DNA of 64,000 nucleotides from Streptomyces echinatus. Lineage in GTDB: Bacteria; Actinomycetota; Actinomycetes; Streptomycetales; Streptomycetaceae. The position numbers were made by a program, and so were the translations under genes. The first letter of the stretch is position 1; each line of letters begins with the position of its first letter. The notes under the pieces are model-generated. The model ran no database searches. It saw only the letters and a program-made list of their open reading frames with translations, and had not been told where the DNA came from. Shown piece by piece: positions 10,733-14,122 of the stretch. The stretch spans positions 1 to 64,000 of the forward strand of contig NZ_JACHJK010000007.1 in the NCBI RefSeq assembly GCF_014203595.1, written 5' to 3'.

Positions 10733-10749
10733 GTCCACAACCTGTGGAC
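10733..10749. promoter_or_regulatory. Perfect dyad resembling two opposed DnaA boxes
   Basis: GTCCACA-ACC-TGTGGAC lies in the divergent gap between the DUF2786 and LysE genes. The right half reads CTGTCCACA on the minus strand, close to the Streptomyces DnaA box TTGTCCACA. A DnaA role is inference; it could be another dimeric regulator's site. Confidence 0.35.
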
Positions 10750-10884
10750 AGCGGTCCGGGCGCGGCGGCTGCTCGACGGAATCGGCGCGACGGCCCACGG
10801 ACGGCGCCCCGGGCGGCAGCGGCGCCGCTGTCTCACTCCCCGGAATTTCGCCCGCGCGCGTGGGCGGGTGCCAAGCATGGCCGC

Positions 10885-11511
10885 ATGATGGACGCTTCTC
10901 TCTACGCGGCGTTCCTGGTCGCCGCGTTCGCACTCTGCATCACTCCCGGGCCCGACATGATGTTCATCGTGGCGGTGGGCGGCCGGGGCGGCCCGCTGAC
11001 CGGGGTGACGGCCGCCGCGGGGGTGGCCTGCGCGATGTTCGCGCACGCCGTCGCCGCGGCGCTCGGCCTGTCCGCGCTGTTTCTGACCCTGCCCGCGCTG
11101 TACCACGTGCTGCGCTGGGCCGGCGCGGCCTATCTCCTGTTCCTCGCGGTCAGGGCGTTCCGCGGCGAGGGCGGGCCGACCGGGGCGGGGCCGGTGCCCG
11201 GGAAGGGACGCCGGCGGGCCTTCTGGCGCGGTGCCGTCACCAATCTCCTCAACCCGAAGGTGATCCTCTTCAACGTCTCCTTCCTGCCGCAGTTCGTGAA
11301 CCCGGACCTGGGACACGTACGGGAACAGTTCCTCGTGCTGGGCTGCACGATCACGGTGATGGGCCTCCTGGTGGACGGCTCGGTCGGGCTGCTCTCCGGC
11401 AAACTCGCCTCGCTGCTGCGGCGCAGCCGGCGAGTGGCGCGGGGCCTGGACTGCTTCAGCGGGACGGTGTTCGCCGGGCTCGCGGTACGGCTGGCCGCCA
11501 CGCCCAAGTAG
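10885..11511 (+). CDS. LysE/RhtB family exporter
   Basis: 208-residue inner-membrane exporter of amino acids or related metabolites. The family signature is near the start (AAFALCITPGPDMMFIVAVGGRGG). Five to six hydrophobic segments follow, and the conserved FWRGAVTNLLNPKVILFNVSFLPQFV loop is intact. The start is one of two adjacent ATGs, at 10885 or 10888. The substrate is not predictable. Confidence 0.92.
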   Translation: MMDASLYAAFLVAAFALCITPGPDMMFIVAVGGRGGPLTGVTAAAGVACAMFAHAVAAALGLSALFLTLPALYHVLRWAGAAYLLFLAVRAFRGEGGPTGAGPVPGKGRRRAFWRGAVTNLLNPKVILFNVSFLPQFVNPDLGHVREQFLVLGCTITVMGLLVDGSVGLLSGKLASLLRRSRRVARGLDCFSGTVFAGLAVRLAATPK

Positions 11512-11560
11512 GCCGCAGGAGGACCCCGAACCGACCGGAGGAGGACAGGGCATGGACATT

Positions 11561-11605
11561 GTCAACCATCGGTTGACACTCCCTAAGTGACAACCTACGG
11601 TTGAC
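11561..11605 (+). promoter_or_regulatory. Leaderless promoter overlapped by two copies of a 17-bp operator
   Basis: Dyad 1 (11561-11577) is GTCAACC-ATC-GGTTGAC, perfect. Dyad 2 (11589-11605) is GACAACC-TAC-GGTTGAC, one mismatch. The copies start 28 bp apart. A TTGACA (11573-11578) and a TACGGT (11596-11601) are separated by 17 bp and lie inside the two dyads. The predicted start of transcription falls on the ATG at 11609, so the mRNA should be leaderless; no Shine-Dalgarno is present. This suggests autorepression. Confidence 0.7.
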
Positions 11606-11608
11606 ATC

Positions 11609-12385
11609 ATGGCGAGCAACCCGAACCCCACGGCATCCGTGCGCCTCGACGACCTCATCGAGGCCATCAAGAAGGTTCACCACGAACCCCTCGACCAGCT
11701 CCAGGACGCGGTGATCGCCGCCGACCACCTCGGCGACGTGGCCGATCACCTGATCGGCCACTTTGTCGACCAGGCCCGGCGCTCGGGCGCGTCCTGGACC
11801 GACATCGGCCGGAGCATGGGCGTGACCCGGCAGGCGGCACAGAAGCGGTTCGTGCCCAAGGAGTCCGCCGACCTCGACCCCAGCCAGGGCTTCAGCCGCT
11901 ACACCCCGCGCGCGCGGAACGTGGTCATGGCCGCGCACAACGAGGCCGTGGCCGCCCGCAGCCCCGAAGGACGCCCCGCGCACCTGGTCCTCGGCCTGCT
12001 GACCGAGCCCGAGGGCCTGGCCGCGAAGGCGATCACCACCCAGGGCGTCCTCCTGGACGCCGTACGCCAGGCCGCGACCGCCGCGCTGCCGCCCGCCGCG
12101 GACGAGGTCCCCGACCTCGTCCCGTACGGCCCCGAGGCCAAGAAGGTCCTGGAACTCACCTTCCGCGAGGCCCTCCGGCTCGGCCACAACTACATCGGCA
12201 CCGAGCACCTCCTGCTGGCCCTGCTGGAGCACGAGAACGGCCGGGGCGTCCTCAACGGCCTGGGCATCACCAAGGCGTCCACCGAGGAGCGGCTCGCCGA
12301 GATGTTCGCGCTGCTGCTGGAGGGCACGCCCGACACCGGCGGCACGCAGGAGCAGAGCCGCGACACCGACGGCACGCAGAAGTAG
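11609..12385 (+). CDS. HTH regulator fused to two Clp-N (Clp R) repeats
   Basis: 258 residues. Residues 1-88 include a helix-turn-helix-like segment (GASWTDIGRSMGVTRQAAQKRF, about 50-72). Residues 89-155 and 167-232 are two Clp amino-terminal repeats (FSRYTPRARNVVMAAHNEAV, VPYGPEAKKVLELTFREALRLGHNYIGTEHLLLALL). In ClpA/ClpC these domains bind adaptors or substrates, but no AAA+ ATPase domain follows here. A direct regulatory role, possibly sensing misfolded proteins or a Clp adaptor, is inference. The C-terminal 25 residues are low-complexity. The protein probably controls its own promoter. Confidence 0.88.
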   Translation: MASNPNPTASVRLDDLIEAIKKVHHEPLDQLQDAVIAADHLGDVADHLIGHFVDQARRSGASWTDIGRSMGVTRQAAQKRFVPKESADLDPSQGFSRYTPRARNVVMAAHNEAVAARSPEGRPAHLVLGLLTEPEGLAAKAITTQGVLLDAVRQAATAALPPAADEVPDLVPYGPEAKKVLELTFREALRLGHNYIGTEHLLLALLEHENGRGVLNGLGITKASTEERLAEMFALLLEGTPDTGGTQEQSRDTDGTQK

Positions 12386-12433
12386 AGCCGCAGGTCAGGC
12401 GCATTGTCAGACCTCCCTGCCACACTCGCATGC

Positions 12434-14122
12434 ATGACCGACCGGTGGGCGCTCGCACCGGCCGAGGACGGAGGCGTGGACGTCGCCCCCCTCGGCCCGG
12501 ACGGGCTGCCCAGCGGGCCGGTGCGGCGGGAGAGCGATCTCGCCGGGGCGGTGCGGAGCCGCCCGGAGGTGACGCGCTGGGTGTGGCGGTCGACCGCCGA
12601 GGTCTATCCGCGTCTGCTCGCCACGGGGGTGCGAGTGGAGCGGTGCTACGACATCGAGGACGCCGAGACACTCCTGCTGGGCCACGAGGGGCGGTACGGC
12701 GAGCCACGCTCGGCCGCCGCCGCCCTGGCCCGCCTCCGGGGCGGCCCCGTCCCGCCCGACCCGCCGCAGCGGTCGGCCGAACCGGGCGCCCAGTCACCGC
12801 TGTTCGAGCCCGCCGGCATCCGCCTGCCCCTGCCGGACCTGCTCGCGGTCTACGCCGACCAGCTGCGCCGGCACGAGAAGGCCGCCCATCCCGACCGGAT
12901 GCGGCTGCTGACTGCCGCCGAGTCGGCCGGGATGCTGGTGGCCGCCGAGATGAACCGCACGGGTCTGCCCTGGAGCACCGAGGTCCACCGCGAGCTGCTG
13001 CACACCCTGCTCGGCGAACGCTACGCGGGCGGCGGCGAGCCGCGCCGCCTCGCCGAGCTGGCCGACGAGGTGTCCGCCGCCTTCGGCCGGCGGGTGCGCC
13101 CCGATCTGCCCGCCGACGTGGTCAAGGCCTTCGCCCAGGCCGGGATCAAGGTGAAGTCCACCCGCCGCTGGGAGATCCGGTCCGTCGACCACCCGGCCGT
13201 CGAGCCGTTGCTGGAGTACAAGAAGCTGTACCGCATCTGGGTGGCGCACGGCTGGTCCTGGCTGCAGGACTGGGTGCGCGACGGCCGCTTCCGCCCCGAG
13301 TTCCTCGCCGGCGGCACGGTCACCGGGCGCTGGGTGACGAACGGCGGGGGCGGCCTGCAGATCCCCAAGGTGATCCGCCGGGCCGTCGTCGCCGACCCCG
13401 GCTGGCGGCTGGTGGTGGCCGACGCCGACCAGATGGAACCGCGCGTGCTGGCCGCGATCTCCCGCGACCCCGGCCTGATGGAGGTGGCGGCCCGCGAGAG
13501 CGACCTGTACCAGTCCGTCTCCGACCGCGCCTTCTCCGGCGACCGTGACCAGGCCAAGATCGCCGTGCTCGGCGCGGTCTACGGCCAGACGTCCGGCGAC
13601 GGCCTGAAGAACCTCGCCGCGCTCCGCCGCCGCTTCCCGAAGGCCGTCGCCTACGTCGACGAGGCGGCCCGCGCGGGCGAGGAGGGCCGCCTGGTGCGCA
13701 CCTGGCTGGGCCGCACCTGCCCGCCGGCCGCCGGTGCGGGCGAGGACGCGGCGGAGGAGGCGGGCATCCCAGTCGGCGAGGAGGAGCCGGAGGGCCAGAC
13801 CGGCTGGGTCCCCGGATACGCCTCCACCAACTCCCGCGCGCGGGGCCGCTTCGCGCGCAACTTCGTCGTCCAGGGCAGCGCCGCCGACTGGGCGCTGCTG
13901 CTGCTCGCCGCGCTGCGCCGGACCTGCGCGGAACTCCGGGCCGAACTGGTCTTCTTCCAGCACGACGAGGTGATCGTGCACTGCCCCGCCGAGGAGGCCG
14001 ACACCGTCGCCGGGGCCATCCGCGAGGCCGCCGCCCTGGCCGGCCGGCTGACCTTCGGCGAGACACCGGTGCGCTTCCCGTTCACGACGGCGGTGGTGGA
14101 GTGCTACGCCGACGCCAAGTGA
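12434..14122 (+). CDS. Family A DNA polymerase (annotated elsewhere as bifunctional 3'-5' exonuclease/polymerase)
   Basis: 562 residues. The polymerase core is complete: motif A VVADADQMEPRVLA (Asp330), motif B RDQAKIAVLGAVYGQTSGDGLKNL and motif C FFQHDEVIVH (His510, Asp511). There is no 5'-3' nuclease domain, so this is an accessory polymerase and not the main Pol I. The N-terminal 190 residues occupy the place of a 3'-5' exonuclease, but I see none of the expected DxE...D...D motifs, so proofreading is doubtful. A linker holds an acidic run. The ATG at 12434 lacks a clear ribosome-binding site. Confidence 0.88.
   Translation: MTDRWALAPAEDGGVDVAPLGPDGLPSGPVRRESDLAGAVRSRPEVTRWVWRSTAEVYPRLLATGVRVERCYDIEDAETLLLGHEGRYGEPRSAAAALARLRGGPVPPDPPQRSAEPGAQSPLFEPAGIRLPLPDLLAVYADQLRRHEKAAHPDRMRLLTAAESAGMLVAAEMNRTGLPWSTEVHRELLHTLLGERYAGGGEPRRLAELADEVSAAFGRRVRPDLPADVVKAFAQAGIKVKSTRRWEIRSVDHPAVEPLLEYKKLYRIWVAHGWSWLQDWVRDGRFRPEFLAGGTVTGRWVTNGGGGLQIPKVIRRAVVADPGWRLVVADADQMEPRVLAAISRDPGLMEVAARESDLYQSVSDRAFSGDRDQAKIAVLGAVYGQTSGDGLKNLAALRRRFPKAVAYVDEAARAGEEGRLVRTWLGRTCPPAAGAGEDAAEEAGIPVGEEEPEGQTGWVPGYASTNSRARGRFARNFVVQGSAADWALLLLAALRRTCAELRAELVFFQHDEVIVHCPAEEADTVAGAIREAAALAGRLTFGETPVRFPFTTAVVECYADAK

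Follow-up and report, generated by a model that had tools for sequence, protein, structure and literature searches.

The gene at 11609-12385 of the window (the whole 64,000-nucleotide stretch of Streptomyces echinatus DNA that was analyzed) is, judged by its sequence, the Streptomyces orthologue of clpC2 (Mycobacterium tuberculosis Rv2667), and it very probably forms a one-gene sensor-repressor in which the N-terminal helix-turn-helix (HTH) is the DNA reader, within a family of HTH autoregulators using one operator code. The locus itself is a member of the system described in mycobacteria and adds little that is new. The comparisons suggest two new points: the role of the HTH as reader, and a modular family with a common operator code. 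We consider it likely that the HTH, not the Clp-like domain, reads DNA, and that the actinobacteria have a large and so far undescribed family of such HTH autorepressors, which employs the code GTCAA-N6/7-TTGAC, often over leaderless promoters, with interchangeable sensors. As parts of this likely reading, the proposed sensors are a fused Clp_N, a Clp_N protein encoded by the next gene, DUF3887, and a DUF2812-like domain accompanied by a small membrane protein; whether the spacer is 6 or 7 would depend on the subfamily, and letter 3 of the half-site would follow the recognition helix. Among the matches listed from the open-licence PMC literature, preprints excluded, no paper was found that describes DNA reading by the HTH, the split operon, or operators at the DUF2812 and DUF3887 fusions.

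Identity and domain organization of ClpC2

The initial annotation described a DNA-binding segment joined to two Clp repeats without an ATPase, and this architecture was borne out by the Pfam scan and by the helices predicted with AlphaFold2. PF02861 (Clp_N) was found in two stretches at residues ~95-239 (E 1.5e-22), no AAA+ family was listed at E up to 1, and no Pfam family reached its gathering score in the N-terminal 89 residues. The gene and protein features are as follows.

11609-12385, plus strand: clpC2 coding sequence, ATG, 258 amino acids and stop; inferred transcription start at its first base (leaderless, from promoter geometry, as published for orthologues)
11636-11854, plus strand: N-terminal dimerisation and HTH domain, residues 10-82 (8ADA match, E 1.7e-29; fold match, Z 13.0 over residues 10-72)
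11795-11851, plus strand: helix-turn-helix, residues 63-81 (AlphaFold2 helices)
11828-11851, plus strand: predicted recognition helix, residues 74-81, RQAAQKRF (AlphaFold2; Q75, A76, Q78 and R80 invariant in 110 orthologues)
11891-12325, plus strand: C-terminal domain with two Clp_N repeats, residues 95-239, presumed ligand or client sensor (PF02861; 8AD9 fold match)
11891-11893, plus strand: Phe95, a kept cyclomarin-contact residue (F95 in 110 of 110 orthologues)
12125-12127, plus strand: Tyr173, replacing the cyclomarin-contact Phe172 of M. tuberculosis ClpC2 (orthologue alignment; contacts from excerpts of PMC10030653)

Among solved structures, the sequence search with ClpC2 matched 9p2p (a ClpC2 structure; E 9e-67, residues 85-242), 8ad9 (the C-domain of M. 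tuberculosis ClpC2; E 1e-39), and 8ada (the N-domain of Rv2667; E 1.7e-29, residues 4-72). The fold comparisons agreed: the N-domain superposed on 8ADA with Z 13.0 and rmsd 1.0 over 63 aligned residues (10-72), and the C-domain on 8AD9 (Z 24.0, rmsd 2.5, 151 aligned) and on the N-terminal domain of ClpC1, 3wdc (Z 19.8, rmsd 2.3, 145 aligned), of which it is a copy. ClpC1 contains no HTH, and its N-terminal domain is joined to AAA+ modules. With 258 residues and Clp_N only, ClpC2 falls outside the Clp ATPases (ClpC, ClpB, ClpA), which have AAA+ modules. In a fold search of the N-domain for solved HTH proteins, 8ADA was the sole clear match; the low-scoring ones, Spo0J (Z 3.2) among them, carry no weight as evidence, and the RelI structure 9sdc was absent, though matched by sequence.

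AlphaFold2 placed helices at residues 63-69 and 74-81 in a model of the N-domain and at 63-70 and 74-81 in a model of the full protein. Confidence was moderate (mean pLDDT 76.8 and 82.2, respectively), and across the block of residues 71-80, with the recognition helix, pLDDT averaged 56 when the N-domain was modelled by itself and 80 for the full protein.

Relation to known systems

Taylor et al. (2023) reported that ClpC2 dimerises via its N-domain and binds cyclomarin A via its C-domain, and that it is an autorepressor of its own promoter, released by cyclomarin, as well as a cyclomarin sponge protecting ClpC1 (PMC10030653; this and the other papers given by PMC number are cited from excerpts). 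The published operator, CGTCAAC-n5-GTTGACG, lies 1-2 nt upstream of the open reading frame, is accompanied by an upstream repeat in many species, and overlies putative -35 and -10 elements whose positions suggest a leaderless transcript; cyclomarin is reported to induce the gene, as does heat to a milder degree (PMC10030653). Among three ClpC1-binding peptides, cyclomarin alone raises ClpC2 in M. tuberculosis (PMC12913811). The initial annotation was partly supported: its idea of a self-contained sensor holds, and the sensing of Clp protease load or adaptors that it proposed is a possibility, but its statement that no function had been described does not hold, because autorepression, the cyclomarin sponge, the same operator, and the leaderless promoter are in print (PMC10030653).

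The Streptomyces protein resembles its mycobacterial counterpart in domain order, in D46 and R57, and in two Clp_N repeats without an ATPase, and its locus is alike in operator sequence, doubling, and position over -35 and -10, with a predicted leaderless start (PMC10030653). The two residues of the salt bridge reported for the dimer, D46 and R57, were conserved in 110 of 110 ClpC2 orthologues. It differs from M. tuberculosis ClpC2 in having Tyr173 for Phe172 (PMC10030653), and its function is predicted from orthology and the promoter. The remaining published cyclomarin contacts (two Phe, Glu, and Gln in all) are kept as F95, E182, and Q93. Residue 173 is Y in 63, F in 46, and I in 1 of the 110 orthologues. 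Tyr173 may alter the ligand of ClpC2; it need not abolish cyclomarin binding, because ClpC1 F80Y was crystallised with cyclomarin A (entry 3wde, from its title).

The HTH region of the RelI antitoxin (Rv2664) is homologous to the ClpC2 N-domain (9sdc, E 5e-08 with the N-domain profile), and the RelI paper notes the similarity to ClpC2 together with fusions to DUF3887 and DUF2812 (PMC13284704). Unlike ClpC2, RelI has 85 residues, is paired with a toxin, and has its HTH region engaged with that toxin (PMC13284704); ClpC2 is not of the RelI type, having 258 residues with Clp_N and long open reading frames as apparent neighbours. The 'ClpC2' of the Streptomyces acyldepsipeptide papers is a Clp-ATPase working with ClpP1P2, and the common name, beyond membership of the wider Clp group, is a clash only (PMC9765437).

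Operators and promoter of clpC2

Two dyads lie directly over the promoter of clpC2, as listed below.

11561-11577, unstranded: distal operator, perfect 17-bp dyad GTCAACC-ATC-GGTTGAC, the right arm of which forms the -35 element (sequence, chance estimate, and orthologue conservation)
11589-11605, unstranded: proximal operator, dyad GACAACC-TAC-GGTTGAC with one mismatch in the left arm, the spacer of which holds the -10 element, ending 3 nt before the ATG (sequence and orthologue conservation)
11573-11578, plus strand: -35 element TTGACA (sequence; TTGAC followed by G, A or T in 109 of 109 orthologue promoters)
11596-11601, plus strand: -10 element TACGGT (TANNNT), 17 nt after the -35 and 7 nt before the A of the ATG at 11609 (sequence; TANNNT in 108 of 109 orthologues)

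The distal dyad extends to a perfect 19 bp, TGTCAACCATCGGTTGACA, and the proximal dyad is offset from it by 28 bp. GTCAAC-N5-GTTGAC with at most one mismatch occurred twice in the window against 0.04 expected, and none of 100 shuffles contained two. The initial annotation had proposed two 17-bp dyads of GTCAACC half-sites 28 bp apart; the length and the offset were correct, and three of the four half-sites, rather than all four, are exact GTCAACC/GGTTGAC. It had also read a TTGACA-17-TACGGT promoter beneath the dyads with a start that would coincide with the ATG, and these positions are right.

A generic sigma-70 scan listed no promoter at clpC2, because TACGGT fits TATAAT at only three of six positions. 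The assignment of the -10 rests instead on conservation: 108 of 109 orthologue promoters have TANNNT within the second dyad's spacer, and the first dyad's spacer is free. The conserved promoter provides good indirect evidence for the clpC2 promoter and for a leaderless start.

The orthologue set comprised 110 loci, namely the best 30 of the order-level search, one of them the locus of the window itself, and the top 80 among at least 579 matches of another search, and leans to closer relatives; it covers Streptomyces, Kitasatospora, Actinomadura, Micromonospora, Nocardia, Rhodococcus, Mycobacterium, and other genera. Two copies of the window (L009 and L016) and a ClpC ATPase (L002) were left out, and all 110 proteins and all 109 scored promoters are distinct; one locus (L112, offset 28) was mis-paired in promoter scoring and had no scored start. 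Within the order, clpC2 was present at E <= 1e-30 in 107 of 147 sampled genomes. Two dyads, each with at least 10 of 12 letters, were found at 110 of 110 loci, with offsets of 28 bp in 87, 29 in 21, and 30 in 2. The second dyad ended 2 or 3 nt upstream of the ATG in all 109 scored promoters (85 and 24, respectively), and the -35 and -10 were 17, 18, or 19 nt apart in 86, 21, and 2.

A small frame at 11552-11590 (12 codons, with a strong Shine-Dalgarno sequence, running through the first operator) was considered as a functional upstream open reading frame and rejected: it is present in 1 of 109 promoters and absent from the other 108, and it begins upstream of the operators and of the proposed clpC2 transcript. 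As for the neighbours of clpC2, we take 10744-11511 to be a LysE-type exporter gene and 12404-14122 to be a PolA-like polymerase gene, neither with an evident Clp link.

HTH relatives without a fused Clp_N domain

ClpC2 combines an HTH of the pattern W..IG..LGVxxQA with a GTCAA-N6/N7-TTGAC dyad over its own promoter, the combination that characterizes the proposed family. The same genome encodes a 183-residue HTH paralogue on contig 17 (L006:1303-1932, minus strand; orthologues L133-L162), which adjoins what we take to be fmt. The upstream site of this paralogue is GGTCAAGAAAGAGTTGACC or close variants: GTCAA-N7-TTGAC was found in 29 of 30 loci, ending 35-67 bp before the start, and the thirtieth differs by one base, these being the best 30 matches and all from one genus. 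The shared half-site core in front of 29 of these 30 genes raises the question of whether another or additional regulator, such as the paralogue, binds the clpC2 dyads, with clpC2 as a target and not an autoregulator. We regard this as highly improbable: DNA of the clpC2 promoter retained ClpC2 of M. smegmatis, and the deletion strain no longer repressed a clpC2-promoter reporter (PMC10030653), the pair of dyads is found at all 110 clpC2 loci examined, and the flanks and position 6 differ between the clpC2 operators and those of the paralogue.

The label 'DUF2812-like' is given here by resemblance, after the RelI paper (PMC13284704), and a Pfam scan of two such members listed no DUF2812. In the first set of these loci (L183-L188), GTCAA-N7-TTGAC was present in 6 of 6, and five had paired dyads at an offset of 28-29 bp, the second being followed after 2-3 nt by an ATG, a layout like that of clpC2. 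These loci are operons of a small, apparently membrane-bound protein and an HTH-DUF2812-like protein, and the ATG after the dyads is that of the small protein. Over both sets, with a repeat removed, an exact dyad was found in 8 of 10 loci; of the other two, L201 contains the HTH with a best dyad of 8 of 10 letters, and L198 has no HTH motif match to anchor a dyad. No exact GTCAA/TTGAC at the other spacings from 0 to 15 was found in the paralogue set or the first DUF2812-like set. As a control, the half-sites were also searched in reverse order (TTGAC-Nn-GTCAA). The DUF2812-like set then gave hits at n=11 in 1 locus and n=12 in 4 loci, which corresponds to the distance separating two paired dyads, and two DUF3887 loci gave hits at n=13.

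DUF3887 was confirmed by Pfam in one fusion member (E 4.3e-19). Among the first seven DUF3887 fusions, the exact GTCAA-N7-TTGAC occurred in one and the relaxed GTMAA-N7-TTKAC in five, with one relaxed hit at N10; when letter 3 was left free, dyads of the GTAAA/GTCAA type were present in 17 of 20. Before the counts over the HTH relatives, L197, L202, L211, and L212 were dropped as repeats of L188, L192, L190, and L189, respectively.

In a sample picked by HTH similarity, 11 of 20 loci contained an exact dyad (N7 in 3 and N6 in 8; one N2 hit was also seen), and no exact dyad occurred at the 18 other spacings. This sample was taken from a search giving 38 places, of which 11 were ClpC2, 4 the 183-residue paralogue, 20 the sample, and 3 not taken; it includes one diverged ClpC2 (L163, N7), without which the count is 10 of 19. 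Nine of the 20 had no exact dyad, and seven of these nine had none even at 9 of 10 letters.

A split HTH and Clp_N operon

The N6 sites of this sample led us to a split form, in which a short HTH gene (74 residues in L175) is followed directly downstream by a two-repeat Clp_N gene. We examined 50 split loci, being the best 30 and 20 hand-picked lower matches, one per genome, out of far more, and counted 48 after dropping two without the motif (L272 and L279); 11 of the 48 are from one family and 13 from Streptomyces. An exact GTCAA-N6-TTGAC dyad was present in 43 of 48 and one of at least 9 of 10 letters in 45; exact sites numbered 73 at N6 and 0 at spacings 3-5 or 7-11. A frame matching Clp_N lay directly downstream in all 48, with Clp_N confirmed by Pfam for four, and the dyads were often paired, 27-28 bp apart (L234-L271, L273-L278, and L280-L283). 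The 48 loci represent 13 family codes, and the split operon was seen in 13 of the 16 Streptomyces genomes in the search. It was not found in the S. echinatus genome, where the sole match in the search was the 183-residue paralogue.

Additionally, a free-standing Clp_N gene on contig 14 has a different dyad (L003:1463-1500), GTCAATA-N6-TATTGAC, in full CCCTGTCAATA-N6-TATTGACAGGG. No ClpC2-type HTH was found upstream of it in the frames examined, and by eye the dyad adjoins an apparent divergent gene for another kind of HTH.

The domain that reads the operator

Taylor et al. assigned DNA binding to the C-domain on the basis of its conserved basic face and a weaker-binding double mutant, R185A/R189A (PMC10030653). 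On their account the operator is recognised by the Clp_N domain, with R185 and R189 (R186 and R190 here) on the helix that contacts it, the N-domain serves only for dimerisation, and cyclomarin blocks the DNA site of the C-domain. The expression data from M. smegmatis, where the C-domain mutant R188A/R192A is up 2.0-fold, agree with it (PMC10030653), and of our 110 orthologues 109 keep R186 and 108 keep R190. However, the ClpC1 of the S. echinatus genome shares the first arginine (SLREALQLGHN), and little specificity for the clpC2 operator is reported for ClpC1 (PMC10030653). Relatives free of Clp_N have the same half-sites, the split operon encodes Clp_N in a gene of its own, and the electrophoretic mobility shift (EMSA) behaviour of the dimer mutant and of the isolated C-domain was taken by the authors as support for the importance of the dimer (PMC10030653). 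We consider the C-domain very unlikely to be the reader.

Instead, we think that the N-terminal HTH reads DNA, as sequence comparison and structural models indicate. The HTH is preferred because the published N-domain crystal ends at residue 72, upstream of the predicted recognition helix at 74-81, because the HTH has the operator where Clp_N is not fused, because 11 of 20 loci chosen by the HTH have an exact dyad, and because of the split operon. Also in its favour, the dimer mutation R57A raised expression 4.6-fold in M. smegmatis against 2.0-fold for R188A/R192A (PMC10030653). Since the deposited crystal stops at residue 72, the second helix of the HTH was hidden from the published view (PMC10030653). 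The N-terminal segment, which the initial annotation had taken as the DNA binder, is on our evidence preferred to the published assignment.

Variation in the half-site points to the recognition helix as well. Half-sites of proteins with Q or H next to the xQAx motif have C as letter 3 in 448 of 448 cases; with F at that residue, 24 of 42 half-sites have A instead, and C is retained at three F-type loci (L193-L195). This comparison used 107 ClpC2 loci, three being without the HTH search pattern, and 101 of these have a dyad unmismatched outside letter 3; it used 8 of 8 DUF2812-like loci, with L201 and L198 omitted, while 4 of 16 short or other loci are without the pattern. The change of letter 3 may be a single event in one clade, and in the distal dyad the -35 places its own constraint on one arm.

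Several points count against the HTH as reader. The lower DNA binding of R185A/R189A implies a contribution of the C-domain (PMC10030653), 9 of the 20 loci chosen by the HTH and 2 of the 10 DUF2812-like loci are without an exact dyad, and the authors of the RelI paper found no inverted repeat upstream of M. tuberculosis relSI (PMC13284704). In addition, homologous genes may share promoters through descent, although descent alone does not easily explain dyads that persist when all other domains are lost or exchanged and that have only two spacings. It is possible, if somewhat doubtful, that both domains touch DNA, with the HTH giving sequence recognition and a basic face of the C-domain giving non-specific affinity that the ligand removes. 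Such an arrangement would reconcile the C-domain mutant data (PMC10030653) with the association of HTH and operator, but it is superfluous for Clp_N-free relatives with equally good operators. It is compatible with the HTH as the sequence reader and differs from our preferred explanation in how the ligand acts.

Further dyads in the genome

A genome search for further dyads, as the initial annotation had suggested, found the core GTCAA-N7-TTGAC exactly 4 times in 9.39 Mb, against 7 in a reversed control, and the longer GTCAAC-N5-GTTGAC exactly 3 times, once at clpC2. Two of the four exact core sites are upstream of HTH-family genes, one (L011) is in a 688-codon frame, and one (L010, contig 8) is in a frame of at most 187 codons and may lie between genes. 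The 12-base pattern with one mismatch occurred at 23 sites against 9 in the control, which is some excess. Besides the two clpC2 operators and the paralogue's site, 20 such sites remain, and of the 19 looked at, 16 are inside stop-to-stop frames of at least 250 codons and 3 (L010, L022, and L230) in shorter ones. L022 (contig 12) is probably between two genes. The single dyads L010:1501-1517 and L022:1501-1517, one exact and one mismatched, could be targets of the HTH family. A wide ClpC2 regulon is not apparent from the exact core sites (4 against 7 in the control); a small regulon of further single sites is possible.

Proposed mechanism and implications

For mycobacteria, autorepression, the operator, dimerisation, and release by cyclomarin are published (PMC10030653), and orthology and the same promoter suggest that the Streptomyces copy acts alike. 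The N-terminal helices would hold the ClpC2 dimer so that its two recognition helices (residues 74-81) sit on the GTCAA/TTGAC half-sites of a dyad, and two dimers on the two dyads would cover the -35 and -10 and keep the leaderless promoter off. The Clp_N pair, as a copy of the ClpC1 docking surface, could be filled by a cyclic peptide, an exposed protein segment, or an adaptor. The filled dimer would release DNA, much ClpC2 would be made, and the ligand would be soaked up and ClpC1 spared. We infer that the natural signal in Streptomyces is a peptide or an unfolded client.

Should the HTH be the DNA reader, derepression by cyclomarin, which is modelled in print as the covering or rearranging of a DNA site on the C-domain (PMC10030653), would have to be allosteric. 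The importance of these results would lie in this correction and in the family; the locus extends the published mycobacterial system to Streptomyces. The split HTH and Clp_N operon may be a second, overlooked Clp-docking sensor and a natural place to seek protection against ClpC1-directed compounds. Taken more widely, GTCAA-N6/7-TTGAC over a promoter would offer a sequence rule for finding sensors of small molecules or of proteostasis.
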